A stretch of DNA of 42,270 bases from a virus: positions 1-42,270 of IMG/VR virus record IMGVR_UViG_3300028844_005921, one strand, 5' to 3'. The translations under genes and the position numbers were made by a program. This document shows, piece by piece, positions 2,424 through 42,267 of the stretch (position 1 is the first letter of the stretch; the number at the start of each line of letters is the position of its first letter). Under the pieces are notes generated by a model. It did no database searches. It was not told where the DNA came from and worked only from the letters and a program-made list of their open reading frames with translations.

Positions 2424-2652
2424 TCTTTAATCCTAAATAATACTTCTGATTTTTATGAAAATTTAAATAATAAGGTAGGTCATTACCATAGGGAATTTGT
2501 ATTCTTTCTATACCTAAACTATCTATAATTATATCTAGTTCTACAGGTTCATTACTTTTTTCTAATATTTTAACTATTTTTTCTATAGTTTCTGTTATTT
2601 GTTGCCCTTCCATTCTGACAGCAAATCTAGATCTTATTTTAGGGAGCATCAT
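2407..2652 (-). CDS. Hypothetical protein, 81 aa
   Basis: I do not recognise this protein. The N-terminal half looks helical and charged, with a possible short coiled stretch ([13 protein letters not shown]), and the C-terminal part has aromatic residues around [18 protein letters not shown]. It overlaps purT upstream by 14 bases and the PP-loop gene downstream by 17 bases, so it is probably translated by coupling within the operon. It could be a partner of the PP-loop protein, but position is the only support. Confidence 0.5.
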
Positions 2653-3814
2653 GCGTACTAATATCGAAAATTATAATTTTACTAGCAGCTTTTTTAGCCT
2701 TTCCTACAGTCGGAGCTAGTACTACTCCCATTCTTCTATTAGGCCTTGCCACTGGTTTTCCAAAAATTCTAACATCGACGCCTGTAATTTTCATTGCGGC
2801 TGGGATACCAGTAATAATAAAGTCAGGACTTGTACAGTCTGCTAAAATAACTTGACTTGCCCCTTCTCTTAAAATTTTTATCTCATCAATTGGAAGCCCT
2901 AAGATTGCACGAGCATGTAAATCAAATTCACTTAAATTTTGAGTATATAAAGTTACTAGTCCTGTATCATGTGGACGAGGACTAAGCTCACTAAAGATAA
3001 CAGTTGGATTATCAGTACTTATGTCTACAAAAAATTCAACACCAAAAATACCCTCTCCTCCGAGATCGTCTGTAATAATCTTAGCCATCTCTTGTGCGTG
3101 AGTTTCTATAATATGATTAGTAAAAGTTTCCTCTTGCTTACTTTGCCAGCTTCTTTGGTAATCCCCTCTTTCTTGCTCATGCTCTATGATTGGACAAAAT
3201 AAAGTAGGACCGTCTTTTTGCCTTACTGTAAGAAGAGTAATTTCATAACTAAAGTCAATAAACTCTTCAACTATAACTCTATGCCTATCCCCTCTCATAT
3301 TATCAATAGCATATTTCCAAGCAGCTTGAATTTCATTCTGATCATCAACTACCATCTGACCTTTGCCGCTAGAACTCATTACTGGCTTTACAACGCAGGG
3401 GAAGCCAATTTGTCTAGCTGCCGATTCTAGTTGGTCTAAGTTTTCAGCATATCTAAAATTAGCTGTTTTTAACCCTAGTTCGACAGCACGATCTCTAATT
3501 TTATCACGGTTCATAGTTAGATTTACAGCTCTAGCGGAAGGAACAACTTTATATCCTTGCTGTTCCTTCTCTACTAGAAACTCCGTGTTGATCGCTTCTA
3601 TTTCTGGGACAATTAAATCAGGTTTATAGTAACTGATAACTTTCTCAAGCTGACTTGCATCAAGCATATCTAAAACTTCAAAGTCGTCCGCAACTTTCAT
3701 TGCAGGTGCTCCTACGTAAGAATCACATGCAATAACTGTGCATCCATATTTCTTTGCACTAATAGTAAACTCTTTTCCAAGCTCACCGCTCCCCAAAAGT
3801 AGAATTTTTTTCAT
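2639..3814 (-). CDS. purT: Formate-dependent phosphoribosylglycinamide formyltransferase (GAR transformylase 2)
   Basis: PurT makes formyl-GAR from GAR, formate and ATP, the third step of purine synthesis, without needing formyl-folate. The sequence is full length (391 aa) and of ATP-grasp type. It has an N-terminal nucleotide-fold start ([15 protein letters not shown]), a substrate-binding segment around [15 protein letters not shown], the ATP-grasp region ([16 protein letters not shown]), the metal-binding part ([22 protein letters not shown]) and the terminal [14 protein letters not shown] block typical of PurT and PurK. Marine phages often carry purine genes. Here purS lies elsewhere in the window. 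The gene follows the glycosyltransferase directly with no spacer, so they share an operon. Confidence 0.93.
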
Positions 3815-16301: not shown

Positions 16302-17039
16302 TTAAGTTATCACCAATCCAGGTTTCAATAATTTTAACTTCTGTATCTGTTGGGTTTTGTAGCTGTGCCAGTCACCTTTTTGAATAAAAGCGCTTTGTCC
16401 TGCCACTAATACCTTCTCACGCTCATAGTCACTTGCTATATTTATAGTATTAATAAATATTTTTCCAGAGACTACAACCCAATGTTCTGACCTATCTTTG
16501 TGTTTTTGCATAGACAAACTTGATTTAGGATTAACTATAATTTCTTTTGTAAGGAATCCTTCTCCATGAGATAAAATTATATATTTGCCCCAAGGTCTTT
16601 CTACTTCTGGACGAGAATAGTTTTTTAATAGTGTAGAGCTAGAATTTTTCTTATCTTCTCCCCCAATACCAAAAACAAAGCTAACGCTATCATCAAGTCT
16701 GTAAGTCTCTAGTTCTGGTATATTCTCTACTGTTCTATCTCCTCCATTAGCAAAAATTACTTTTCTATTAGGATATTTTATCATAGCTTGCTTAATAGCA
16801 TCTATAGCAGTTCCATCTCTGTCATCAAAAGCAATAACATGATCTACCATTTCTAAATTTTCTAAAACACAGGCACGTTCATCCCATAACATAAATGGCT
16901 TGCCTTTTTTCCGGGCAAGCCATAAATCAGAATTTAAACCAACAATTAAAACATCTCCCAGCTTCTTTGCTTCTTGAAATAGGGAAATATGTCCTGAGTG
17001 AATAGGGTCAAAACCTCCAGTTACTACAACTATTCTCAT
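16302..17039 (-). CDS. Cytidylyltransferase-like nucleotidyltransferase fused to a cupin (type II PMI-like), C-terminus frameshifted
   Basis: The N-terminal domain (about 1-140) is of the HldE/TagD nucleotidyltransferase type: VVVTGGFDPIHSGHISLFQEA with its HxGH-like site, then GDVLIVGLNSDLWLARKKG. The C-terminal part is a cupin like the mannose-6-phosphate isomerase half of ManC: RPWGKYIILSHGEGFLTKEI, LSMQKHKDRSEHWVVVSG, and FIQKGDWHS. In the window frame it ends in an atypical KLKLLKPGLVIT. One missing A in the run at 16355-16358 would restore NPTDTEVKIIETWIGDNL and a stop at 16276, the family's usual ending. It probably activates or isomerises a sugar for the glycan cluster. The truncation is either an assembly error or a real mutation. 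Confidence 0.8.
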   Translation of the reverse strand: MRIVVVTGGFDPIHSGHISLFQEAKKLGDVLIVGLNSDLWLARKKGKPFMLWDERACVLENLEMVDHVIAFDDRDGTAIDAIKQAMIKYPNRKVIFANGGDRTVENIPELETYRLDDSVSFVFGIGGEDKKNSSSTLLKNYSRPEVERPWGKYIILSHGEGFLTKEIIVNPKSSLSMQKHKDRSEHWVVVSGKIFINTINIASDYEREKVLVAGQSAFIQKGDWHSYKTQQIQKLKLLKPGLVIT

Positions 17040-26875: not shown

Positions 26876-27618
26876 TATATTACCTCATTGTCTACTGTTG
26901 TAAACCACTCTGTATTTTGCCATTTTGTTTTTAGTCTTTCTTTATTTCTTGCTTGAGCATCATAAAGATTTTGGGTCATTATTCTTTTATTATCCTTACT
27001 TTCCCAGTGTAATAAGGTTGCCGGGGTCATATAAATTTTCCAGCCCGCTTTACGTGTTTCCATGCAGTAATCTACATCTCTTTCATATGTATATTCAAAT
27101 GTTGGGTCAAAATCTCCAACCTCGTCTAGAACTTCTCTTCTAATATAGAGTCCTCCAAAAGTGCACCAAGCAACTTCCCTAACTTTGTCGTATTGTCCAT
27201 CATCTATCTCTGGAGATTTCCAGAACTGCTTATCTTCCATTCTGAGTCCACTACCAAAGTGATCAGCTGTACCATCCTCATTAATTTTTCCGCCAGCGTG
27301 CTGAATGATGAATTTCCCATCTTCATTTTTAGCTGGATATAAAAGTTTACACCCTAACATTCCCGCTTCGGGGTATTTTTTAGCATAATTGCATAACTCG
27401 TGATACCAATTGTTAGTTTGGGCATCTCCTTCTAGAGGAGTCATATCTGCGTGTAAAATAATAATATCATCATTAGTTTGCTTCCAAAGTTTTTGATACA
27501 TCATATCTGATCCAATTTTAGACGTATCTTCTTCAAAAATACAGTCAAATTCCCATAACATATCTCTAAGAGGGGCTACTTCGTTCTCCCACACATAGGG
27601 ACAAATAATTGTTGCCAT
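26875..27618 (-). CDS. Family 2 glycosyltransferase, 247 aa
   Basis: A typical GT2 layout: MATIICPYVWENEVAPLRDML at the start, a metal motif DDIIILHADMTPLEG, a long insert, and an acceptor-side segment AWCTFGGLYIRREVLDEVGD followed by ERDVDYCMETRKAGWKIYMT and TLLHWES, as in rhamnosyl and related transferases. The start at 27618 shares a base with the epimerase stop (TAATG), so I prefer it to the form starting at 27639. It would build a glycan together with the neighbouring transferases; the donor may be the dTDP-sugar made here. Confidence 0.88.
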   Translation of the reverse strand: MATIICPYVWENEVAPLRDMLWEFDCIFEEDTSKIGSDMMYQKLWKQTNDDIIILHADMTPLEGDAQTNNWYHELCNYAKKYPEAGMLGCKLLYPAKNEDGKFIIQHAGGKINEDGTADHFGSGLRMEDKQFWKSPEIDDGQYDKVREVAWCTFGGLYIRREVLDEVGDFDPTFEYTYERDVDYCMETRKAGWKIYMTPATLLHWESKDNKRIMTQNLYDAQARNKERLKTKWQNTEWFTTVDNEVI

Positions 27619-28643
27619 TACATTAACCTTTCTACCCAAGTTTTAGGGGTACTTTCCGTAATAAATTCTAAATCAAGAGCATAGTTAAATTCTTCTGCTC
27701 CTCTATCTGAAATCCAATTAACCATTTCTATAATAGTATCATCAATATTTCTAGTAGTGTTGTAATTAAATTGAGTTTTTATCTTTTCTGAAGAACACCA
27801 AGCATTTTTTACTTCAGCAGGTCTATCTGGAAAATACTCAATTTTTGGATAAATACCACAATGATGCCCTACTCTATACGCTAAATCTTTAATAGTTATC
27901 TCATTATCGTCGGGACCAATATTAAATACTTCTCCTGTTAAGTCTCTGTCTGAATTTACAAGATTCCAGATAGCATCTCCACAGTCTCTAATGTTCGAAA
28001 AACTACGTTTTTGTTCCCCATCTCCATAAATAATAATAGGTTTTTTGAGAAGAGTTCTATTAATCATGATAGCTACTACATTTCTGTAAGGGTCCATATA
28101 TCTTTGCCCAACTCCCACTACATTATGAGGAACCACAGTAAAATATGATAATCCATGTAGCTTATTGAGAAGTTCTAAATGTTCCTCTGCTTGTGCTTTT
28201 GCTAACCCGTAAGGGTCTTCTGGACTACGAGGTAAATCTTCTGTAAACGGAGGTTTCTGCGCTCCGTATCTAGCCATAGAGCTAAAATTAACTAAAGTTT
28301 TTACCCCGTTGGCTAAACAAGCTGAAGCTACACTTACAGTACCTCCTACAATATTTTCTGTGACAATTTTAGGAGAAAATACAGACAGCCCTTCATAAGG
28401 AAGTGCGGCACAATGAAAAACAATATCTGAGTTTCCAATATGTTCTCTTAAAGATTTATAATCTAAAATATCTATTTCTTTAAAATCTATAACATTTTTT
28501 CTTTTAAATAAGTCTAGATTTGACTCTAGTCCTCCAATAAAAGTGTCACAGCCTTTTACTTTCCAGTTATTAAAACAAAAAAGGCGAACTAGTTCACTAC
28601 CTACTAGTCCAGCAGCTCCTGTTATATATACAGTATTAGTCAT
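27618..28643 (-). CDS. NAD-dependent NDP-sugar epimerase/dehydratase (SDR family)
   Basis: An extended SDR with NAD-binding GAAGLVGSELV at the N-terminus, DIVFHCAALPY, the serine in LVNFSSMARYG, and the catalytic Tyr-x3-Lys in DPYGLAKAQAEEHL. The sugar-side segment GDGEQKRSFSNIRDCGDAI is also present. It could epimerise or reduce a nucleotide sugar; related enzymes make UDP-galactose or dTDP-sugars. A second SDR at 32499-33449 and RfbB at 29340-30284 lie in the same cluster. It overlaps the 235-aa gene upstream by 8 bases. Confidence 0.85.
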   Translation of the reverse strand: MTNTVYITGAAGLVGSELVRLFCFNNWKVKGCDTFIGGLESNLDLFKRKNVIDFKEIDILDYKSLREHIGNSDIVFHCAALPYEGLSVFSPKIVTENIVGGTVSVASACLANGVKTLVNFSSMARYGAQKPPFTEDLPRSPEDPYGLAKAQAEEHLELLNKLHGLSYFTVVPHNVVGVGQRYMDPYRNVVAIMINRTLLKKPIIIYGDGEQKRSFSNIRDCGDAIWNLVNSDRDLTGEVFNIGPDDNEITIKDLAYRVGHHCGIYPKIEYFPDRPAEVKNAWCSSEKIKTQFNYNTTRNIDDTIIEMVNWISDRGAEEFNYALDLEFITESTPKTWVERLM

Positions 28644-29343
28644 TATTTATTACTATTCCTTCCCACATGTGAGTCCAATCTGTATAAGGACTCATGTGAC
28701 CTTCTTTTAGGTGCGTAGCTACTCCTGGTAGGGGATTTATACAATATGATTCTTTTAAGATGTCCTTTAACATATCTACTTCAAAAACTTTAGCAGCATT
28801 TATAAAAGTATCAATGTGTTGCTTAAAAATTAAGTTAGTTCCAAATATATTCCAGCTTATATTATCTGTAGTTTTCCAGTGTCTATCAGCCCCTAAGAAA
28901 GTTATACCTTCTTTAACTGTTGAATACGTAGAAACATCATCTTCTGGCACTAAAAATTGGGGCCATTTCTTAAACGCTTCTTTGATAACTTTAAAAGATC
29001 GGGAAGACCACAAGTAGTCATCTTCGAGAAGAGCATATATTTCTTCATTATCGTCATTTTCTAATAATGAATTTTTCATATCAGTTAAGGGTTTTACAAT
29101 AGAATCTTCTTTTGACTCAATTTGTATAAACTCTATAAGTCCTTTTGTGTGTCTTTTAGATAGCCAGTTTAATGTTTTTTTCCTAACATCATGATGATAC
29201 ACTTTTAGAGAATCTTCTTCCCCCATATTTAGCATTAAGCTAATCCAACATTTTTTAAGAATAAGTCTCTTGTCAAAAGAGTTCCATCTTTCTTCGCCAC
29301 TTAAGCTTGTTTGATTTTCACTAATTCTTAAATAAATATTCAT
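28636..29343 (-). CDS. Possible glycosyltransferase, 235 aa
   Basis: I do not firmly recognise this protein. It has a GT-A-like acidic motif, IYALLEDDYLWSSRSF, near residue 103, a following WPQFLVPEDDV, and a later ITFLGADRHWKTT. The N-terminal region, RISENQTSLSGEERW, looks like a short phage-type transferase start. No membrane segment is visible. It couples to RfbB by an ATGA junction upstream, so it is likely part of the same glycan pathway. Confidence 0.5.
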   Translation of the reverse strand: MNIYLRISENQTSLSGEERWNSFDKRLILKKCWISLMLNMGEEDSLKVYHHDVRKKTLNWLSKRHTKGLIEFIQIESKEDSIVKPLTDMKNSLLENDDNEEIYALLEDDYLWSSRSFKVIKEAFKKWPQFLVPEDDVSTYSTVKEGITFLGADRHWKTTDNISWNIFGTNLIFKQHIDTFINAAKVFEVDMLKDILKESYCINPLPGVATHLKEGHMSPYTDWTHMWEGIVINND

Positions 29344-30284
29344 TTAGTAATAAACCTATTTACATTAAAGTTTCTATAAATAACGTCAGCTAGCTCTGCA
29401 GGACCTTTTGTAGGAGCCCAGCCCAGATTTCTAATCTTGCTGTCATCAATATGATAATCTAAATCTTGCCCTTGTCTATTTTCTACATACTTAAGGGGAT
29501 AATCTTCTACTCCTGCAGCTTTTATAAAGAAATTAATAATTTCTTTATTACTAAATCTCCAATCACCAGAGATATTATAAATTTCGTTTTCAATGCCATT
29601 TTCCATTACAGTAGCAATGCCTTTAACTGCATCTTCTACCCATAACCACGTTCTTATATATTCTCCAGTTCCGTGTACAGGAATTGGTTTATTTTTCTTC
29701 AGATTAAAACAAACTGTCGGAATAAGCTTCTCTGGATATTGGTGATTACCAAAACAATTTGTCATCCTTACGATATTGTAAGAAATACCGTATGTTCTAC
29801 CATACGCTAGTACCAGTTGATCTGCTGCAGCTTTAGAAGCTGAATATGGACTAGAGGGCTGAAGAAGGGTTTTTTCATCAAAAATTTTTCCTGCAACACT
29901 ATCTCCGTAAACTTCATCAGTACTAATATGAATTAGGTGTGGACGATGACTTGTAGGCATACGTCTGATTAACTCAAGTATATGATGAGTACCCCCCACA
30001 TTACTACTAATAAACTTAGAACTATCGGCAATAGAATTGTCAACATGAGACTCCGCTGCAAAATTAATTACATAATCACAAATAGGTAAGTACCCTAAAT
30101 TGTGAATATATTCTCTAGATTCTGTATAGGTTACTTTCTGTTTAAACTGCGCAGATTGTTGTCTGTCTGCAGCGTATGTATAACAGTCAATATTAATTAT
30201 ATTATTGTGGTATAAATACCTATCAATAAAGTGCTTTCCAATAAATCCTAGTCCACCAGTTACTAATATTACTTTATTTTCCAT
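29340..30284 (-). CDS. rfbB: dTDP-glucose 4,6-dehydratase
   Basis: RfbB turns dTDP-glucose into dTDP-4-keto-6-deoxyglucose. Visible are NAD-binding VTGGLGFIGKHFIDRY, VINFAAESHVDNSI, the Thr/Asp/Glu catalytic set in HISTDEVYGD, and Tyr-x3-Lys in SPYSASKAAADQLV. The C-terminal segment includes GEYIRTWLWVEDAVKGI. At 314 aa it is slightly shorter than the bacterial enzyme (about 350). FdtA lies directly upstream with an 11-base overlap, giving the first two committed steps in order. No RmlA (dTDP-glucose synthase) is in the window, so the host or another phage gene must provide dTDP-glucose. Confidence 0.93.
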   Translation of the reverse strand: MENKVILVTGGLGFIGKHFIDRYLYHNNIINIDCYTYAADRQQSAQFKQKVTYTESREYIHNLGYLPICDYVINFAAESHVDNSIADSSKFISSNVGGTHHILELIRRMPTSHRPHLIHISTDEVYGDSVAGKIFDEKTLLQPSSPYSASKAAADQLVLAYGRTYGISYNIVRMTNCFGNHQYPEKLIPTVCFNLKKNKPIPVHGTGEYIRTWLWVEDAVKGIATVMENGIENEIYNISGDWRFSNKEIINFFIKAAGVEDYPLKYVENRQGQDLDYHIDDSKIRNLGWAPTKGPAELADVIYRNFNVNRFITK

Positions 30285-30672
30285 ATGTTTCTAAATATAC
30301 ATCCCAATCTCTAATATAATCAGTTTCGTCATGCTCTGCAGAACAAAGCACCAAACAAATAGTGCCTTTACTAAATCTGTACAGCTTTCGCCATATATGA
30401 GGATACAGTAAGAGCCCTTGTCTAGGATTATTTAATTCTATTTGTTTATGCTGATTTCCATCCGTTAACTCTACCCAAAGACTTCCATAAAGAGGAATTA
30501 ATACTTCTTGTAGCGCATGATGCGCATGATCCCCACGGGACGCCCCTAAAGGTACGTTGTCTATAGTAAAGACTCTTTTAATTTCAAAGGGGATTTCTAT
30601 TAGATTATCAATAAAGGTTAGGCAGCCTCTTGAATCAGAAACGGTAGGAAATTTTAAAATTTTATACAACAT
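30274..30672 (-). CDS. fdtA: dTDP-4-oxo-6-deoxyglucose 3,4-ketoisomerase (FdtA/QdtA-like)
   Basis: A single-domain cupin of 132 aa, the usual size. The family signature is clear: RGCLTFID near the start, IPFEIKRVFTIDNVPLGASR followed by GDHAHHALQEVLIPLYG with the catalytic His pair, and the terminal EHDETDYIRDWDVYL. FdtA moves the keto group from C4 to C3 so that an aminotransferase can place an amino group at C3. The matching aminotransferase is at 33442-34554. The 4-ketoisomer type (axial or equatorial product) cannot be read from sequence. A strong GAGGGG site precedes the ATG, just after the tmRNA. Confidence 0.88.
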   Translation of the reverse strand: MLYKILKFPTVSDSRGCLTFIDNLIEIPFEIKRVFTIDNVPLGASRGDHAHHALQEVLIPLYGSLWVELTDGNQHKQIELNNPRQGLLLYPHIWRKLYRFSKGTICLVLCSAEHDETDYIRDWDVYLETYGK

Positions 30673-30684
30673 TTACCCCTCAAA

Positions 30685-30978
30685 ATAACAGGTATTCTGT
30701 TGCTAGGAACCTGCCGAACCCCAGAAAGACTATGCAGCTAGTGCATACTCCTCAGATGCTACGAAATTATCGTTTGCATTTATTTGTTTTCTTGCGGTTG
30801 AGGTCGCTTGCGCACCTGTCTCTCGGTTTCCCTATTATCTGCCTGTCGATCCTATTTCGCCCCCATCATAAGCATACCACAACAAACTCTTTCGTGTCTA
30901 GCAAGGTCTCATTACTAGAGACGGTGGTATGCTTATGGTGGAGGCGTCGGGTACTGCCCCCGAGTCCAGATCAGTTTT
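30685..30978 (-). ncRNA. ssrA: Circularly permuted two-piece tmRNA
   Basis: Reading leftward the gene is in permuted order. The acceptor piece comes first (about 30977-30936), ending CGCCTCC-A-CCA. Next is an intervening segment (30935-30865), then the coding piece starting GGGGGCGAAATAGG at 30864. The 5' GGGGGCG pairs with CGCCTCC in a 7-bp acceptor stem that has a G3-U70 wobble, the alanine identity element. The intervening segment closes in a 14-bp stem (30867-30880 with 30924-30937) that joins the two ends for processing. The tag frame is 30730-30777: resume codon GCA, then ANDNFVASEEYALAA and TAG. The conserved AGGATCGACAGG follows the 5' end. The outer limits are approximate. tmRNA rescues stalled ribosomes and tags the nascent protein for degradation. 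Confidence 0.92.
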
Positions 30979-31208
30979 CAGTCTACGTCATCAAGACACT
31001 CTATTTGGTACTCTTCCATAACTTCATTATAAAGATGTTTGATAATATCTTCTATATTATCTTCTGTAGTAATATAAATGTTTTTACCTATTTTTACATC
31101 TTTAACTTCTGAAAACCCTAATCCAAGTAAAGATTTAGTGACTGCTTTTCCTGCGTTATCAAGTATGCCAGAGCGCAGCATTATTGTTATCTTATACTGT
31201 TTCTTCAT
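30978..31208 (-). CDS. purS: Phosphoribosylformylglycinamidine synthase subunit PurS
   Basis: PurS is the small partner of the PurLQS complex, which makes FGAM in purine synthesis. The 76-aa sequence has the family core ITIMLRSGILDNAGKAVTKS, LLGLGFSEVKDVKIGKNIYI, and a final helix (IIKHLYNEVMEEYQIE). The ATG at 31208 is chosen over the upstream TTG at 31220. It is the second purine gene in the window, with PurT. It ends where the tmRNA acceptor piece begins, so the stop and the RNA gene are practically contiguous. The promoter at 31316-31344 probably drives both. Confidence 0.93.
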   Translation of the reverse strand: MKKQYKITIMLRSGILDNAGKAVTKSLLGLGFSEVKDVKIGKNIYITTEDNIEDIIKHLYNEVMEEYQIECLDDVD

Positions 31209-31335
31209 TAGGGAATACAACAGATTCGTTAGTAATTTTATCTCTTTTTATGCCATCATCATCATAATACCAAGACCTTTTGTCTGGGTCATGATCAAAA
31301 GTAGTATGTTCAATTATTTTACCAGTTTCTTTCAT
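31192..31335 (-). CDS. Small acidic protein, 47 aa
   Basis: This short ORF of charged residues (TTFDHDPDKRSWYYDDDGIK) ends 17 bases inside purS. An AGGGG lies 10 bases before its ATG. The ORF start falls between the -35 and -10 of a strong promoter, so transcripts from that promoter cannot encode the full protein; only read-through RNA from upstream can. I recognise no family. It may be a real, conserved small gene or simply a leader overlapping the promoter. Confidence 0.4.
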   Translation of the reverse strand: MKETGKIIEHTTFDHDPDKRSWYYDDDGIKRDKITNESVVFPNEETV

Positions 31336-31344
31336 AAGTGTCAA
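31316..31344 (-). promoter_or_regulatory. Sigma70 promoter (TTGACA-17-TAAAAT) before purS and tmRNA
   Basis: Reading leftward, a perfect TTGACA (31344-31339), a 17-nt spacer and TAAAAT (31321-31316) would start transcription near 31309. The first gene downstream is purS, followed by the tmRNA and the FdtA/RfbB sugar genes. Confidence 0.75.
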
Positions 31345-31359
31345 CCCCTTTTTTAATTT

Positions 31360-31614
31360 TTAAATTTTTAGATAAAAACTACTGTCTACTTCTAATTCTT
31401 TTAGATCACCTGTTACAGTCTTATAGTTAAATATCCTAAAGTCATCAGCTTCTAAATCCCAGACAAGTTCCATACCTTCTGGGTAACCACGTTCTGTACC
31501 TGTACCGACTACTCTTGCAGCCACAAAACTTCCTGGTAAGTCTTTGATTCGAGAGAATACCATTTCTCTCTTTTCGCCATTCTTTTTGGTGAATGAACCT
31601 TTATATGCTTTCAT
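31360..31614 (-). CDS. Conserved phage-type protein, 84 aa (DUF2693-like pattern)
   Basis: The sequence KAYKGSFTKKNGEKREMVFS leads into LPGSFVAARVVGTGTERGYP, then MELVWDLEADDFRIFNYKTV, a small all-beta pattern I associate with the DUF2693 family of phage proteins. It is probably an SH3-like or OB-like fold. Function is unknown. A consensus AGGAGG site lies just before the ATG and is also part of a hairpin with its own internal promoter (31622-31656), suggesting tight timing control. It is one of few genes here with a private promoter. Confidence 0.6.
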   Translation of the reverse strand: MKAYKGSFTKKNGEKREMVFSRIKDLPGSFVAARVVGTGTERGYPEGMELVWDLEADDFRIFNYKTVTGDLKELEVDSSFYLKI

Positions 31615-31621
31615 AAAAAAA

Positions 31622-31656
31622 TCCTCCTAATATTATGTATTATAACACTAGGAGGA
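31622..31656 (-). promoter_or_regulatory. RBS-sequestering hairpin with an extended -10 promoter in the loop
   Basis: On the minus strand TCCTCCTA (31656-31649) can pair with TAGGAGGA (31629-31622), the ribosome site of the 84-aa gene. Between them lies an extended -10, TGT-TATAAT (31647-31639). RNA reading through from upstream would carry both arms and hide the ribosome site. RNA started at the internal promoter (near 31632) would lack the upstream arm and be translated. Confidence 0.6.
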
Positions 31657-31674
31657 GTATAAGAGAAGAATTAA

Positions 31675-32364
31675 TTAAACCCAGAGTCGAGCATTCCAAC
31701 TAATCGAACGTCGCTCTCCTTCTCCTTTAAATGGAGGAACTTCATGGTTTAGCCACGCTGGAAAAATATAATAGTCTCCGACCTCTGGTTTTAAAGTTAG
31801 CATACTAGGAAACTCTAACATGTTGGGGTTGCCTCTGTCACTCCATAAAAACTTAATCATGCCGTCATCAGCTTTTGGGTCTTCATTATTAGTAATTTGT
31901 TCTGGAATTTTTAGATAAACTACTGAACTGAGCGCAGGAAAAGACTGACAATGATTATGTAAAGGGTTATAGTCAGCTTCCAGTTGCTTGTTTACCCACA
32001 TTTCATAAATGTCTACACTAATAGTATCATTCCAAACTGCCTGTGCTTTTGGGTTGTAATGTAAATACCCATTCATCCACTCTAGGCATAAATTAGTTGA
32101 AAAACTCATAAAATTAGATAAAGCTTTTGACTTTTTAGTATCCTCAGTAACTGGGATAAGTCTCTGTTTACCATTTTTAAGCTGCCCTGCTAATCTATCG
32201 TCATAGCTTAGTCCGTCTAGATCTGGATCATCGGCTAGAATTACGTCTGATAGTTCATTTAAGAAATCAACGGTTTGTGTTGGAATTTTTACCTTTAAAA
32301 TTCCTGCTGCGGTTAGTGGAACCCACTGAACCTGTATTTGGTTTTCCTGCGTTTCTGTTGTCAT
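31675..32364 (-). CDS. 2-oxoglutarate/Fe(II) oxygenase of the PF13759-like family, 229 aa
   Basis: The C-terminal half fits this family: LEADYNPLHNHCQSFPALSS with the HxH-type iron ligands, VVYLKIPEQ, and the ending VGDYYIFPAWLNHEVPPFKG with the distal His, then ERRSISWNARLWV with the Arg. These enzymes are common in marine phages and their substrate is unknown. The start at 32364 has a GAGGGG site; the longer form to 32400 has none. It overlaps the bS21-like gene by about 98 bases in another frame. Confidence 0.75.
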   Translation of the reverse strand: MTTETQENQIQVQWVPLTAAGILKVKIPTQTVDFLNELSDVILADDPDLDGLSYDDRLAGQLKNGKQRLIPVTEDTKKSKALSNFMSFSTNLCLEWMNGYLHYNPKAQAVWNDTISVDIYEMWVNKQLEADYNPLHNHCQSFPALSSVVYLKIPEQITNNEDPKADDGMIKFLWSDRGNPNMLEFPSMLTLKPEVGDYYIFPAWLNHEVPPFKGEGERRSISWNARLWV

Positions 32365-32515
32365 TATTTCCCCTCTTATTGTATCTAACTTGTGACTCAA
32401 GTTTTAATAGAAGCGCTTCTTTCTTCTTTTGGTCTTTTTTCCATTCTTTATGAAGTTTGCGATTTAAAATCTTGAACGCTTTTAAAGCGTCACCGTTTCT
32501 AACTATCACTTTCAT
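32267..32515 (-). CDS. bS21-like small basic protein, 82 aa
   Basis: The first 25 residues, KVIVRNGDALKAFKILNRKL and the following HKEW, closely match the start of ribosomal protein bS21, including forms in pelagiphages. The usual middle (KELKKRxxYEKPS-type) is missing; KKDQKKKEALLLKLES follows at once, resembling bS21's basic end. The last 33 residues are Asn/Gly-rich and overlap the oxygenase gene. bS21 helps initiation on the 30S subunit, so a phage copy could change which mRNAs are translated. The call rests on the N-terminal match. It overlaps the epimerase upstream by 17 bases. Confidence 0.5.
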   Translation of the reverse strand: MKVIVRNGDALKAFKILNRKLHKEWKKDQKKKEALLLKLESQVRYNKRGNNDNRNAGKPNTGSVGSTNRSRNFKGKNSNTNR

Positions 32516-33449
32516 GTGTCTCTTTCATATACAAATTAAAGTAGTCTTTAATTGTCTCCTCGTAGGTATTAAATTTTGGTTTCCAGTTAAACGTATTCAT
32601 TAATTTAGAGTTATCTAGTCTACCTCTTGGTTTTCCGGTAGGACCAGATTTAGTAGTAGTTTCTATATCAATTTTTAGTATTTCTGAAGATAGAGTTTTT
32701 ATTACATTTTTATCTCTTACAAAACCTGAACTTAAATTATAAATTCCAGGCACCCAGCTGTCAACTAAAATATTAATTACATCTACTAAATCCTTAATAT
32801 AAATACAGTCAGCTTCTTCTACATTGACTGGTTGATTTTTTTCCGCCTGTCTTTCTATATTCATAGTAATAGGAAACTTACCATCTCCATACCCATATAC
32901 ATGCATAGGTCGTAAAATAATATCATTTTCTGTTACTAACGATTCACTTTCTTTTTTAGCCTTACCATATAAATCTACCGGGTTTTGAGGATAGTCTTCT
33001 TGTATAGTTCCCTCCCACGTTCCATAAGACATAGAGCTTGAAAAGTGTAATATAGGGACTTTAGGGTATAATTCTTTAATTTTTTCTAATCCAGTTACAA
33101 TAGACTTATGTGTAAAATCTTTAAAATATTGAGATAAAATTGCCTCAGACAGGCTACCACAATTGATTATTAAATCAACATCTTTTATATGCCATGATCC
33201 AAAAGTCCACTTATTTACGAAATATACTCCTTGGGTTAAGAAGCTTCTGTAGTTTGCAGCAATATTTCTGTGTTTTATCTCTAGAGCAGAGGCTTCTTTT
33301 AGACCATCTTTACCACGATGAATAGCTTTGTATCCGGGGTAGTTTTCTGTCCAACCATCTAAAACTGTAATATTATGTCTATCTTTTAAAGAATAAACTA
33401 GATGAGCCCCGATGAATCCTTTTCCTCCAGTGATTAGTATATTAGACAT
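32499..33449 (-). CDS. NAD-dependent NDP-sugar epimerase/reductase (SDR family)
   Basis: The extended-SDR features are ILITGGKGFIGAHLVYSL at the N-terminus, DLIINCGSLSEA, SSSMSYGTWEG, and the catalytic Tyr-x3-Lys in VDLYGKAKKESESL. The C-terminal part has HVYGYGDGKFPITMN. It probably reduces or epimerises a nucleotide sugar. It lies next to the aminotransferase, overlapping it by 8 bases, so it may act on the amino-sugar made there. A role as a 4-reductase is possible but unproven. Confidence 0.82.
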   Translation of the reverse strand: MSNILITGGKGFIGAHLVYSLKDRHNITVLDGWTENYPGYKAIHRGKDGLKEASALEIKHRNIAANYRSFLTQGVYFVNKWTFGSWHIKDVDLIINCGSLSEAILSQYFKDFTHKSIVTGLEKIKELYPKVPILHFSSSMSYGTWEGTIQEDYPQNPVDLYGKAKKESESLVTENDIILRPMHVYGYGDGKFPITMNIERQAEKNQPVNVEEADCIYIKDLVDVINILVDSWVPGIYNLSSGFVRDKNVIKTLSSEILKIDIETTTKSGPTGKPRGRLDNSKLMNTFNWKPKFNTYEETIKDYFNLYMKETHESDS

Positions 33450-34554
33450 TGGAAAGGGCTTTCTTAATTCTTTCTAGTTCTTCCTCTTCTAAATAATGAT
33501 GACAAGGAAGCATAACTGTAGATGCGGTAAATTGTTCTGTTAAAGGACACCAAGCGTGATAATCATTTAAAAAATTAAATTGATGAAGGGGTTCCTTAAA
33601 AAAGGTTCTAGCTAGACAACCTACCTCGTTAAGTGACTTTATCACGGACTCAACCTGGTCGGGTAAGACTGCCATCGTGTATCTCTCCCATATATAATTA
33701 TCGCCCGGTATGTTTGGGTAGGGAAGATTCTCTTTATACCATGTTGCAATTGCGTCTCTTTTCTTTCGATACTCATGTTTCTCAAACAACTCAATTTCCT
33801 TTAAAAGAACTGCGCAAGAAGTATTATCCATATATGACTTAGTACCAAAGGTAACAATTTTTTTATTATTACCTCTTCCGTGAGATGTAATTTCGTCTAT
33901 TCTATATTTAGCGTATTCTGAATTAGTTGCAATTGCTCCTCCGCTACCAAGAGTCCCAGGATATTTTGTGAAATCAAAAGAAAAACACGCTGCATCAGAC
34001 CCTGTGCCAGGTACATAAGCATATGGCTCTCCCATATAAAATGCTGGTGCTGCATCTTCTATGATAGCGGTTCCCGTAAAACCATAATCATCAAGTATTT
34101 CTCTTATAGCAAAGCAATCAACAATTGTTCCAAAATTATGAACTACAATAATTGCTGAAGGAGTTAGCGTATTATTCTCACAATAATTTTTCAAAGACTC
34201 TAAGCTAATATTTCCAGTTTCATCTATATCAATAAACTGAATTAGCCTGCCCATAAATTTAACAGCATTAGCAAAAGCTCTCCAACCATAGGCAGGAACT
34301 AATATTTCGTCTCCGGGCTCCGTAAAAGCTGTAATTGCTATTTGTAAGGCATCTGTGCAGCAGTCTGTAAAAGTCCAGTATCCTACTCCACTAAAATCAG
34401 CACACTTTTGTTTAAGAGCCTGTTGTACAGGAGAAGGGTCTCTACCATCTTCTGACTGGTAGGGATAATCCATTGCTTCATTAATTGCCTTTAGATAGTC
34501 TACTCTATGACGATCTAAGCGTCTTTGGTGTGGTATAAAAGCTATTTTTTTCAT
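33442..34554 (-). CDS. DegT/DnrJ/EryC1/StrS-family sugar aminotransferase
   Basis: This PLP enzyme has the family layout: VPAYGWRAFANAVKFMG, AIIEDAAPAFYMG with the PLP-contacting Asp, and the Schiff-base lysine in FSFDFTKYPGTLGSGGAIAT. At 370 aa it is full length. With FdtA and RfbB in the same cluster it is the natural candidate to place an amino group at C3 of a dTDP-keto-deoxyhexose. Other members act on C4 or C5-keto sugars, so the position of amination is inferred. The ATG shares a base with the PP-loop gene stop upstream (TAATG). Confidence 0.85.
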   Translation of the reverse strand: MKKIAFIPHQRRLDRHRVDYLKAINEAMDYPYQSEDGRDPSPVQQALKQKCADFSGVGYWTFTDCCTDALQIAITAFTEPGDEILVPAYGWRAFANAVKFMGRLIQFIDIDETGNISLESLKNYCENNTLTPSAIIVVHNFGTIVDCFAIREILDDYGFTGTAIIEDAAPAFYMGEPYAYVPGTGSDAACFSFDFTKYPGTLGSGGAIATNSEYAKYRIDEITSHGRGNNKKIVTFGTKSYMDNTSCAVLLKEIELFEKHEYRKKRDAIATWYKENLPYPNIPGDNYIWERYTMAVLPDQVESVIKSLNEVGCLARTFFKEPLHQFNFLNDYHAWCPLTEQFTASTVMLPCHHYLEEEELERIKKALSNV

Positions 34555-35639
34555 TATTCACCTAAATAGTATTCCTCAGAAACTCCAGCATGTTTTAAAT
34601 CTAAATATTTTTTATCTAAAAAATTAGGATCTATAGCTGATAAAGAATCTTTTATTTTTGATTTGTATACACTGTATAAATCAATATTATTGTTTTTCAT
34701 ACATTTATAAACAATACTATCCTCTGTATCTTTTTTATTAGTTAAATCAATACCTAACCCCATTGCTTTTAGTGGTTGAAATGAAGAATCATGTTTATAT
34801 CTACAAGCTTTTACTAAATCATCTTTATATTCAGTATTTTCCCCAATAAATATAGTACTTTTCTCCATAGAATCCTTAACAATATTTGTTTTTTTAAAAT
34901 ATTTTTTAACTAAATGACACTGTTTAATATGTAATTTTGGTAATTCTGTAGAACAGTAAAACCAATCACCATACTGAGTTGTACTGACTCTGTGAGTCAT
35001 TTTTACATAAAATTTACCTAATTTTACAATTAGCTTTGGTTTAATTTCTCCCACAATGTGTCCGTCATAAGAAACTTTTGTGTTTATATGCCCTAGTTCT
35101 TTTAAGACAGGTAAAGAAAACCGTCTTACATTTCCTATTGACCAGTTAAATGTAGAGTTAAACCAATAGTTACTTTCTAGCACATATTTAATAAATTTTT
35201 CATCTATTTGATTAATTGTAAACTTAGTTTTAGGAAGTAACTTTGCGTAAAACTTCATTTTCTCAATAGCTAATACGTTATCTTTAAGAGGATTGATTCC
35301 ATTAATAGTTAGAACAGTCAAAACAATTTCATCTACAAAAACTTTAGATTTTACAAATGCTTGCAGCATTGTTTCAGAATCTGCCCCTCCACTAAAATAG
35401 AGAGTTAAATATTTATGTTTATCTCTTAATTGTTTACATCTTTCGTGTAAAAGTTCATCAAAAGACTCTGATGGTTCTGTTTCCCAGTTATAAGTATCCC
35501 AGCTTCCATTTTCAATTAATACTTTAAGCTGCGTTGGATGCACAGAAGCGTTAATTACCTCTTGTTTAGTATAGTACTTTTTATTATCGGCTAAATTAAC
35601 CCAACATATGTTTTTTGGTATAAAATCTATATCAAACAC
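34554..35639 (-). CDS. PP-loop ATPase, asparagine-synthase-like, tandem copy 2
   Basis: The PP-loop is in YLTLYFSGGADSETMLQAF near residue 100. The protein has no N-terminal glutaminase domain. It is clearly a paralog of the next gene upstream (35641-36711): both share NWETEPSE or DWETEPSE followed by LLH-RC-Q-RDK, the PP-loop, SIGN-RRF, ADWFY or GDWFYCS, and LHIKQCHLVK. The two probably arose by tandem duplication and then diverged. Members adenylate a substrate carboxyl or carbonyl; the substrate here is unknown. Confidence 0.7.
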   Translation of the reverse strand: MFDIDFIPKNICWVNLADNKKYYTKQEVINASVHPTQLKVLIENGSWDTYNWETEPSESFDELLHERCKQLRDKHKYLTLYFSGGADSETMLQAFVKSKVFVDEIVLTVLTINGINPLKDNVLAIEKMKFYAKLLPKTKFTINQIDEKFIKYVLESNYWFNSTFNWSIGNVRRFSLPVLKELGHINTKVSYDGHIVGEIKPKLIVKLGKFYVKMTHRVSTTQYGDWFYCSTELPKLHIKQCHLVKKYFKKTNIVKDSMEKSTIFIGENTEYKDDLVKACRYKHDSSFQPLKAMGLGIDLTNKKDTEDSIVYKCMKNNNIDLYSVYKSKIKDSLSAIDPNFLDKKYLDLKHAGVSEEYYLGE

Positions 35640-35640
35640 A

Positions 35641-36711
35641 TTATTTTCCTAAGTAAAACATATGAGCAGGAGGAATATTTTCTACGTCTCTTTTTCTAGG
35701 GCTAAGAAGACTTTTATCAATAGCAGAAATTGTATCTAGTACTTTATAAGAATACTTACTAAAAAGTTCTGGATCATCCTTTTTCATAGCTTGATATACT
35801 ATACTATCTTCATTTTTTACATCTGTAAATAAATCTACGCCTAATCCAATAAATTTTGCTGGTTGATAGCTACTATCATACTCATATCTACAAGCTTTAA
35901 TAACATGCTCATTATACTGACTACGCTCACTTAAAAAGCCGTCTGCATCTGGAATATTCTTTTGAAAATAGTTTTTCACTAAATGACATTGTTTTATATG
36001 TAGTTCTGGGCAATCTAAACTATAGTAAAACCAGTCTGCGTATTGAGCAATTGCAATTCCTTGATAAGAAGTACTATAGTATTTTCCTTCTTTAATAACT
36101 ATGTGCGGTTTTTCACTTGCAGTAATATGACCAGTTGTAGGGGCATTTTTATGACCCTGCCCTAAAATCTCTAAAATATGATTTGGAAAACGACGAAGAT
36201 TTCCAATTGACTGATTAAAAGTTGATTCCCACCAGTTATATGAGTTTAAGAATCCCAGAACATAATCACGTCCTAGTTCATTTACAGTAATTTTTGTTTT
36301 AGGGAGAAATTGTTTAAAGTGGTGTAGTTTTTGAACTGCTAAATCTAAGTCTTGAAGGGGGTTCTGATTTCCTATTTTTAAAATATTAATTACAATCTCA
36401 TCAGGATGCACTCCAGACTCAATGAAAGCACGAACCATTGTTTCTGAGTCTACTCCCCCGCTAAAATAAAGAGTGACATATGGATATTTATCTCTAATTT
36501 GTCTACAACGTCTATGAAGAAGCTCCTTAAAAGTTTCAGAGGGCTCTGTCTCCCAATCAAAGCTTTGCCATTTACCGTCGTGTAAAACTAGTCTTAAATT
36601 AACGGGATTTGAATGTCCAGAAATTAAGTCTGTTTTATTATAGTACTTTTTTCCAGTTTTTATATCTAATACGTGAACATGTCCAATGACAAAATCATCA
36701 TCAAACCTCAT
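35641..36711 (-). CDS. PP-loop ATPase, asparagine-synthase-like, tandem copy 1
   Basis: The PP-loop is in YVTLYFSGGVDSETMVRAF near residue 88. As in its downstream paralog, shared blocks follow: SIGNLRRF, YADWFYYSLDCPELHIKQCH, and KACRYEYDSSYQPAKFIGLG. No glutaminase domain or signal is present. It follows the thioredoxin-like gene with an 11-base overlap and precedes its paralog by one base. Both copies may act on related substrates; an amidotransferase or ligase acting on the sugar pathway is one idea. Confidence 0.7.
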   Translation of the reverse strand: MRFDDDFVIGHVHVLDIKTGKKYYNKTDLISGHSNPVNLRLVLHDGKWQSFDWETEPSETFKELLHRRCRQIRDKYPYVTLYFSGGVDSETMVRAFIESGVHPDEIVINILKIGNQNPLQDLDLAVQKLHHFKQFLPKTKITVNELGRDYVLGFLNSYNWWESTFNQSIGNLRRFPNHILEILGQGHKNAPTTGHITASEKPHIVIKEGKYYSTSYQGIAIAQYADWFYYSLDCPELHIKQCHLVKNYFQKNIPDADGFLSERSQYNEHVIKACRYEYDSSYQPAKFIGLGVDLFTDVKNEDSIVYQAMKKDDPELFSKYSYKVLDTISAIDKSLLSPRKRDVENIPPAHMFYLGK

Positions 36712-40908: not shown

Positions 40909-40939
40909 GTGGGGGGAGAAATCCCCCCACTAATTTTTT
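40909..40939 (+). terminator. Rho-independent terminator after hsp20
   Basis: GTGGGGGG pairs with CCCCCCAC around AGAAAT (40909-40930), followed by TAATTTTTT. The stem also contains the GTG from which a longer form of the next ORF could be read. Confidence 0.85.
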
Positions 40940-40941
40940 AT

Positions 40942-42267
40942 ATGCTAGAATTTCCAAAATCATATATGTTTCACTCTCAAGAGTTAGACAAAAGTGTGTC
41001 TTTTTTAAATGAATTTAGAGGAGTTCATACTATATCAGACGAAATAGTTCGTATTATGTATGATGATAGCATTTTTAGATTTTCTCTGTCTAAGTTTTTA
41101 AGATACACTGCTACTAATCCTTTAAATCCTAAAATATTTTGCCCATTAGACGGTGTAACAGATGTAACCCCTTGGACCGACCTATTAAAAATAAAAGTAG
41201 ATCAGACAGATGATTTTGAATGGTACAAAACAGAAACAACTGCTATTTTAGCAAAAGAAATAAGTAAATTAAAAGATAAAAAAAATATTCTTTTTTTAAG
41301 TGACGGTATTGATAGTTGTTGGTTGTTGTATATTTTTTTAAAAACTGGTGTTGATTTTAAAGCAATTCATTTAGTTAATAGAGAGTCGTATGACTCTAGA
41401 GCAGCTAATATGTATAAGCATAGCAAAACTTTTAATTACGATTTAGATGTCAGAATTATAGATGATTACGATGTCATGAATATTAGAGATAAATTCTTAG
41501 AACTGGGTCCCATACTAAATCTATGGGGTAATTACTGGGATTGTTATTTTGGGGCAGTTTTACTCTCTGAAGAATACAAAGAATATGAAAATGTTGTAAT
41601 AGGAATTACTAATGAAGTGGTTATGCAACAAGTATCAGAACTTGGCTACTTTTTAGAAGAAGATTTTTCTGAGTTAAATAATAAATATGGTAAGTATTTA
41701 CAGGTTAAAACAGGAGAAAACCCTTATATTAGAGAGTTTTATAAAGATAAAGATATTTTTTATTTTTTTAGGCTTTGTGGCATCAGACATACAGATAAAT
41801 TAAGCGTAGTAACTAATAAAAATGTTATTCCAATCTTTTGTAATTTAGACTTGGTCTCTGCTACTGCAAAATTAAAAGGGGAAGCCCTACTAAAAAATAT
41901 GTATAAGCTCACTCAGTATGAAATATTATCTGAAGAAGGTATGTGGCACGATACAGTAAAATGGTCAAATCCAGGCACAGTTGACGGAACTCCTTGGAAA
42001 CATTCTAAAGAGCACTTAGACTATTACGGAGTACCCCGCAGAGGAGGCACTTCTTTGCATGTTATAGACTTTATAGACTGGTATAACTACTATAACTTTG
42101 ATACTCCTATAAGAAACCATAGAGAAGATAAAGACTCTTATAAAAATGATATAAAAAATATTTACTTTGATAGATATTTGAAATCTAAAAATTCAGAAGT
42201 TTTTACGATAAAAAACTTTACTCAAGAAAAGATAAAACAATTTTATGATAAATTACAATATAACTGA
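40942..42267 (+). CDS. PP-loop ATPase, asparagine-synthase-like, 441 aa
   Basis: The fourth PP-loop protein in the window, and the longest. The motif is KNILFLSDGIDSCWLLYIFL near residue 112, with SDGIDS in place of SGGxDS. Residues 1-100 form an N-terminal domain of unknown fold, not a glutaminase; after the PP-loop come DVRIIDDYDVMNIRDK and a Trp-rich C-terminal segment near GTVDGTPWKHSKEHLDYYGV. The ATG at 40942 is chosen because the earlier GTG lies in the terminator stem. The ribosome site is poor, and no promoter is seen between the terminator and the gene, so read-through may be needed. The substrate is unknown. Confidence 0.65.
   Translation: MLEFPKSYMFHSQELDKSVSFLNEFRGVHTISDEIVRIMYDDSIFRFSLSKFLRYTATNPLNPKIFCPLDGVTDVTPWTDLLKIKVDQTDDFEWYKTETTAILAKEISKLKDKKNILFLSDGIDSCWLLYIFLKTGVDFKAIHLVNRESYDSRAANMYKHSKTFNYDLDVRIIDDYDVMNIRDKFLELGPILNLWGNYWDCYFGAVLLSEEYKEYENVVIGITNEVVMQQVSELGYFLEEDFSELNNKYGKYLQVKTGENPYIREFYKDKDIFYFFRLCGIRHTDKLSVVTNKNVIPIFCNLDLVSATAKLKGEALLKNMYKLTQYEILSEEGMWHDTVKWSNPGTVDGTPWKHSKEHLDYYGVPRRGGTSLHVIDFIDWYNYYNFDTPIRNHREDKDSYKNDIKNIYFDRYLKSKNSEVFTIKNFTQEKIKQFYDKLQYN

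Follow-up and report, generated by a model that had tools for sequence, protein, structure and literature searches.

A phage-encoded circularly permuted tmRNA gene and the variable slot formed by its spacer in related phages

Permuted tmRNAs in phages

The phage Melnitz, whose host OM43 is a gammaproteobacterium, carries an alpha-type permuted tmRNA (PMC9004378; MZ577097), for which capture has been proposed as the origin. A 2021 survey by the authors of the Melnitz work put the number of two-piece tmRNAs in phage genomes at 53, with 50 coming from marine or aquatic samples (PMC9004378). Likewise, one motif scan of IMG/VR carried out here retrieved at least 120 viral stretches with the tmRNA head motif. 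Permuted tmRNAs were also present in isolated roseophages and in phages of Rhodobacter, Erythrobacter, and Mesorhizobium, several of them unannotated. Isolated phages whose records carry no tmRNA annotation despite a permuted tmRNA are vB_RpoS-V10 (L239), RcXuper (L241), RcSimone-Hastad (L242), vB_EliS-L02 (L245), and Cp1R7A-A1 (L246). RCRUDOLPH_61, listed as a hypothetical protein in another record (OP009285; L243, 1428-1763), extends over the acceptor piece plus the spacer of a permuted tmRNA and was probably annotated in error.

The tmRNA described here adds one more to the published phage cases, and the kind itself is not new. It is encoded in what we call the window, i.e., the whole analyzed stretch of 42,270 nucleotides, a 42-kb IMG/VR record. 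A sequence-only reading of this DNA had considered permuted tmRNAs to be rare in phages, a view that the 53 surveyed cases and the IMG/VR stretches do not support. It had also taken the ANDN start of the tag as pointing to an alphaproteobacterial host. The tags of viral permuted tmRNAs are diverse, and the tag type leaves the host unfixed; this host inference is weak because Melnitz has an alpha-type tmRNA yet infects a gammaproteobacterium.

Both the Melnitz and the window genes are alpha-type permuted tmRNAs of marine phages, but the two belong to different phage groups. In Melnitz a glutamine riboswitch follows the coding piece, whereas none was detected at the window locus at E values up to 1. 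The Melnitz spacer measures 142 nt and holds an open frame, which goes unmentioned in the searched text of PMC9004378, while that of the window measures 71 nt and holds no gene. With Caulobacter ssrA and the RF01849 family, the window gene shares the permuted order, the acceptor stem and T-stem, an encoded CCA, G3-U70, a tag starting with ANDN, and the coding-piece head GGGGGCGAAAUAGGAUCGAC. It differs from them in lying within a phage operon, overlapping purS, scoring lower, and having a longer closing stem. A further difference from alphaproteobacterial tmRNAs is that relatives of the window carry a protein gene in the spacer, whereas most bacterial spacers are short. The tmRNA database paper describes a repeat element and a tRNA gene inside spacers, and no protein gene (PMC11915505). 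Like the group I intron form of tmRNA, these inserts are extra sequence within a tmRNA gene that is absent from the mature RNA, but they consist of a repeat or a tRNA gene, whereas viral slots hold protein genes.

The tmRNA gene of the window and its carrier phage

Covariance models, tag prediction, and base pairing confirmed at the sequence level a complete circularly permuted two-piece tmRNA gene at 30685-30998 (minus strand). The features of the locus are as follows.

31360..31614, minus: gene of 84 aa, function unassigned; a tmRNA lies nearby in 31 of 80 related viral loci
30978..31190, minus: purS-like gene directly upstream of the tmRNA (PF02700, E 1.3e-14)
30936..30998, minus: acceptor piece, the 3' half of the tRNA-like domain (RF04321 match starts at 30998; T-stem, acceptor stem, and CCA visible)
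30938-30936, minus: encoded CCA of the acceptor piece, read directly in the sequence
30924..30937, minus: 5' arm of the closing stem, CAUAAGCAUACCAC, including the CA of CCA (sequence and fold)
30865..30935, minus: spacer (intervening sequence) of 71 nt, predicted to be excised (hairpin fold)
30867..30880, minus: 3' arm of the closing stem, GUGGUAUGCUUAUG (sequence, fold, and covariation across viral spacers)
30685..30864, minus: coding piece with the 5' half of the tRNA-like domain, tag frame, and pseudoknot region; 3' end approximate (RF01849 match ends at 30685)
30730..30777, minus: tag frame ANDNFVASEEYALAA plus UAG, resume codon GCA (ARAGORN and coordinates)
30274..30672, minus: fdtA-like gene directly downstream of the tmRNA (PF05523, E 1.3e-41)

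The Rfam model RF01849 (alpha_tmRNA) matched 31058-30685(-) at 115.1 bits (gathering 50, E 7e-31) and RF04321 (tmRNA_permuted) matched 30998-30730(-) at 112.3 bits (gathering 47); both matches were reproduced with 1.8 kb of locus sequence. ARAGORN reported a permuted tmRNA with tag ANDNFVASEEYALAA followed by a stop. These results bear out the sequence-only reading, which had called a permuted two-piece tmRNA and proposed a search with the alpha-tmRNA family as a check. The Rfam matches and coordinates also uphold its order of acceptor piece, spacer, and coding piece along the minus strand, as ARAGORN does its alphaproteobacterial-type tag ending in TAG (frame 30777-30730, GCA to UAG). The neighboring PF02700 and PF05523 genes agree with its placement between purS and fdtA. 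Its gene start at 30978 has to be moved, since the acceptor piece begins near 30998 and overlaps the last 20 nt or so of purS.

The 7-bp acceptor stem (GGGGGCG/CGCCUCC) with its G3-U70 pair and the encoded CCA were found as described by that reading, and the alanine identity set of G3-U70, A73, and CCA is complete. The tag frame likewise retains its resume codon, hydrophobic end, and stop. The 14-bp closing stem (CAUAAGCAUACCAC/GUGGUAUGCUUAUG), noted earlier as a spacer stem, pairs exactly and forms with the acceptor stem one long hairpin of -46.3 kcal/mol. The mature ends predicted here, a CCA end at 30936 and a coding-piece start (G1) at 30864, coincide with those first proposed. In the distal P2 helix, UGUCU from 30998 and AGACA from 30821 are able to pair; the middle of P2 is scored as unpaired in the Rfam alignment, and minimum free energy folds differ. 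Stems of the AGGU..ACCU type are visible by eye near 30722-30683, in the PK1/PK2 region. The last purS codons overlap the 5' end of the acceptor piece, and no more than about 15 nt separate the coding piece from the start of fdtA; therefore, the tmRNA must be cut from the operon message.

The DNA polymerase, ssDNA-binding protein, and helicase of the window are most similar to those of T5-like phages, at 30-40% identity. Near relatives of the ssDNA-binding protein (86-87% identity) come from marine contigs, one of which measures 117 kb. The phage encodes purine synthesis genes, namely a PurT-like ATP-grasp protein (2639-3814) and PurS (30978-31190), and nucleotide-sugar or glycan genes at 27618-34554 and 16302-17039. 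The glycan set comprises FdtA, dehydratase/epimerases, an aminotransferase, a glycosyltransferase-like protein, and a cytidylyltransferase fused to a mannose-6-phosphate isomerase-like cupin. Four proteins (1569-2423, 34554-35639, 35641-36711, and 40909-42267) carry a PP-loop motif (SGGxDS-like or similar), two of them adjacent and alike in an apparent duplication. No smpB was found among 15 related viral records; therefore, host SmpB is presumably used.

Spacers of viral and bacterial permuted tmRNAs

Sister phages carry the tmRNA at the same locus, behind the same upstream gene, with both pieces and the tag conserved and the spacer changed.

L236/L388: spacer of 18 nt, no ORF
Window: spacer of 71 nt, hairpin, no gene (no ORF of 20 codons)
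L237/L389: spacer of 165 nt, 42-aa ORF behind a Shine-Dalgarno-like site
L238/L394: spacer of 213 nt, 65-aa ORF
L412: spacer of 232 nt, 69-aa ORF of another family

The spacer thus varies within the phage group of the window, and its sequences mark it as a slot that is either empty or merely structured, or else filled by small protein genes. The slot claim rests on the relatives because the spacer of the window is itself without a gene. We found no report of protein genes within the spacer of permuted tmRNAs in the open-access literature searched, and as far as those papers show, this gene-slot behavior is unreported.

We consider it very probable that the window encodes a functional-looking two-piece phage tmRNA that rescues stalled ribosomes, its excised spacer being the variable slot. 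The operon transcript would fold so that one long hairpin joins the acceptor and coding pieces, RNase P would cut before G1 (30864), and 3' processing would stop at CCA (30936), yielding the two-piece RNA. Charged by host AlaRS and assisted by host SmpB, it would rescue ribosomes stalled during infection and append the phage-encoded ...YALAA degradation tag. The excised spacer would escape the constraint acting on the mature RNA, and it is variable in this phage group. The earlier functional guess of sustained rescue, or of phage-specific tagging, appears reasonable.

It is improbable, in our view, that the gene is a host ssrA passively captured by imprecise prophage excision or transduction and now decaying with no role. 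Capture is the origin proposed for Melnitz (PMC9004378), and the window's 115 bits lie well under most bacterial alpha tmRNAs (about 150-310), but all essential elements are intact and permuted tmRNAs recur in at least 120 viral stretches. Moreover, the sister phages retain the gene with a conserved tag and compensatory T-stem changes (UCGGG/CCCGA in the window versus CGGGG/CCCCG in L237, changed on both sides with pairing kept). Also improbable is that the RNA acts as a decoy, sequestering SmpB or AlaRS and thereby inhibiting host trans-translation, as for the tRNA-like-only tmRNA of mycobacteriophage DS6A, a form reported as a tmRNA inhibitor; in the window the tag frame is intact, with both its resume codon and its stop codon, features that would be superfluous for a decoy.

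The closing stem is conserved across viral loci. Over 79 distinct viral arm pairs, 86.6% of cells were paired at eight stem positions scored independently of locus finding, versus 63.0% (SD 1.4) with partners shuffled, the paired fraction being inflated by relatedness. Many of these pairs differ on both sides, and in several families a Shine-Dalgarno-like GGAG lies within the 5' arm.

Spacers extracted from 144 distinct viral tmRNAs had a median of 91 nt, and 48 measured at least 110 nt. Among the distinct spacers, 59 reached or exceeded 100 nt, and in 51 of them a single ORF filled at least 70% of the length, against 6.3 expected with shuffled interiors; the locus set is partly biased, as some loci were retrieved via the nested protein or a neighbor gene, while about 40 long spacers came from the motif-only IMG/VR scan, unselected for a nested gene. 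These slot ORFs start with ATG in 41 cases, follow a Shine-Dalgarno-like site in 36 (loose criterion), and form 23 clusters mutually dissimilar at BLASTP E 1e-3, among which singletons are less secure than multi-member families. All 17 loci submitted to Rfam gave a tmRNA match surrounding the ORF. In three families the changes are mostly synonymous, a pattern of protein-level selection (few sites, rough estimates): dS 0.43-0.71 versus dN 0.03-0.11 in the 73-aa family, dS 0.81 and dN 0.012 as well as dS 0.78 and dN 0.072 in examples of the 38/44-aa family, and dS 1.86 versus dN 0.12 in the 35-aa family.

A protein scan placed the 73-aa family in 68 viral loci. Seven of these have it nested, within two tmRNAs that differ clearly, and many of the remaining loci carry it as an ordinary operon gene (nested versus free was checked with Rfam in 20 loci). 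Two slot-ORF families also occur as ordinary genes elsewhere. On a contig of 236,751 nt (L470, 1480-1860), a permuted tmRNA is immediately preceded by the gene for a relative of the 65-aa nested protein, an arrangement that suggests moves into and out of the slot. In Melnitz and ten relatives collected with a DNA pattern, the open frame runs the whole length of the spacer and on into the tmRNA, meeting no stop codon ahead of G1, and it is preserved across a difference of 24 nt in spacer length among the relatives. Searches of the nested proteins against Pfam and PHROGs gave no confident family; a 68-aa protein (L044) resembles DUF2061 at E 1.8e-4, just under the cut-off. By tblastn, neither the 65-aa nor the 73-aa family was found in cultured phages.

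An origin of the slot ORFs by chance or through errors of assembly is disfavored as most improbable: about a tenth of shuffled spacers yield such an ORF, conserved sequence beside G1 partly sets their stops at -1 and +13, and several singletons have no Shine-Dalgarno-like site, but the excess over 6.3 is large, dN is much below dS, homologous free-standing genes exist, the Melnitz length change preserves the frame, and the arrangement recurs in many metagenomes as well as in a cultured phage.

Among 66 parsed bacterial alpha tmRNAs, a set that takes in the longest spans listed, the spacer median was 33.5 nt and the maximum 104, and no ORF preceded by a Shine-Dalgarno site was found in a spacer. 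A second bacterial set, low-scoring and mostly from small genomes, had mostly very short spacers. The exceptions were L495 (105 nt, 31-codon frame), L513 (333 nt, no frame longer than 37 codons), and L494 and L512 (each about 500 nt or more, containing repeated sequence). The notion that host spacers are always short was rejected, as a few divergent bacterial tmRNAs have long ones, at least two of them repeat-filled; because of these exceptions, long spacers are not phage-only. Spacers holding conserved protein genes were seen only in viral records among the sets examined here.

Frame ends, possible feedback, and meaning

The slot frames often end right at the 5' end of the mature tmRNA or within it. 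Relative to G1, stops fall at -1 in 17 (UGA, then one U) and in 15 at +13, already within the mature RNA (...AUGAUG/GGGGCGAAAUAG), and the remainder are spread from -28 to +84. UGAU directly precedes G1 in 86 of 103 viral spacers. Because the sequence beside G1 is conserved, two of the three frames stop by default at -1 or +13, and selection on these positions is therefore not required. Judging by these positions, RNase P cleavage at G1 should strip the nested stop codon or leave it at the very end.

Comparable arrangements are known in bacteria. Expression of arfA in E. coli stays low owing to cleavage of its mRNA by RNase III and tagging of the protein by trans-translation (PMC3985003). The smpB gene of Carsonella extends into ssrA, and non-stop transcripts are expected there (PMC4131195). 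Both cases resemble the slot genes in that a small gene has its transcript cleaved during RNA processing, or extends into ssrA, with a non-stop message as the expected result. They differ in that the cut in a slot gene would be the tmRNA's own maturation, which we infer. By analogy, an arfA-like loop is possible for slot genes.

A rather unlikely extension, as we judge it, is that each slot gene comes under the control of its enclosing tmRNA, with the excised message as a trans-translation substrate and translation of the frame delaying tmRNA maturation. Maturation would remove the nested stop (+13 or beyond) or leave it one nucleotide from the 3' end (-1). The nested protein would then be tagged while tmRNA is plentiful and would accumulate only once rescue capacity is exhausted, and ribosomes translating the nested frame would open the closing stem and so delay maturation.

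For annotators the locus carries a warning, as the nested genes and several of the tmRNAs are missing from the annotation of the records examined. The nested-gene case is testable because it is present in the cultured phage Melnitz. The slot proteins are mostly uncharacterized and often membrane proteins, and use of the slot apparently arose many times independently. The phage tmRNA would thus be more than a captured host gene, its discarded spacer housing small proteins, and the nesting of a protein gene within an RNA that is both structured and processed may provide a built-in link of ribosome rescue to gene expression.
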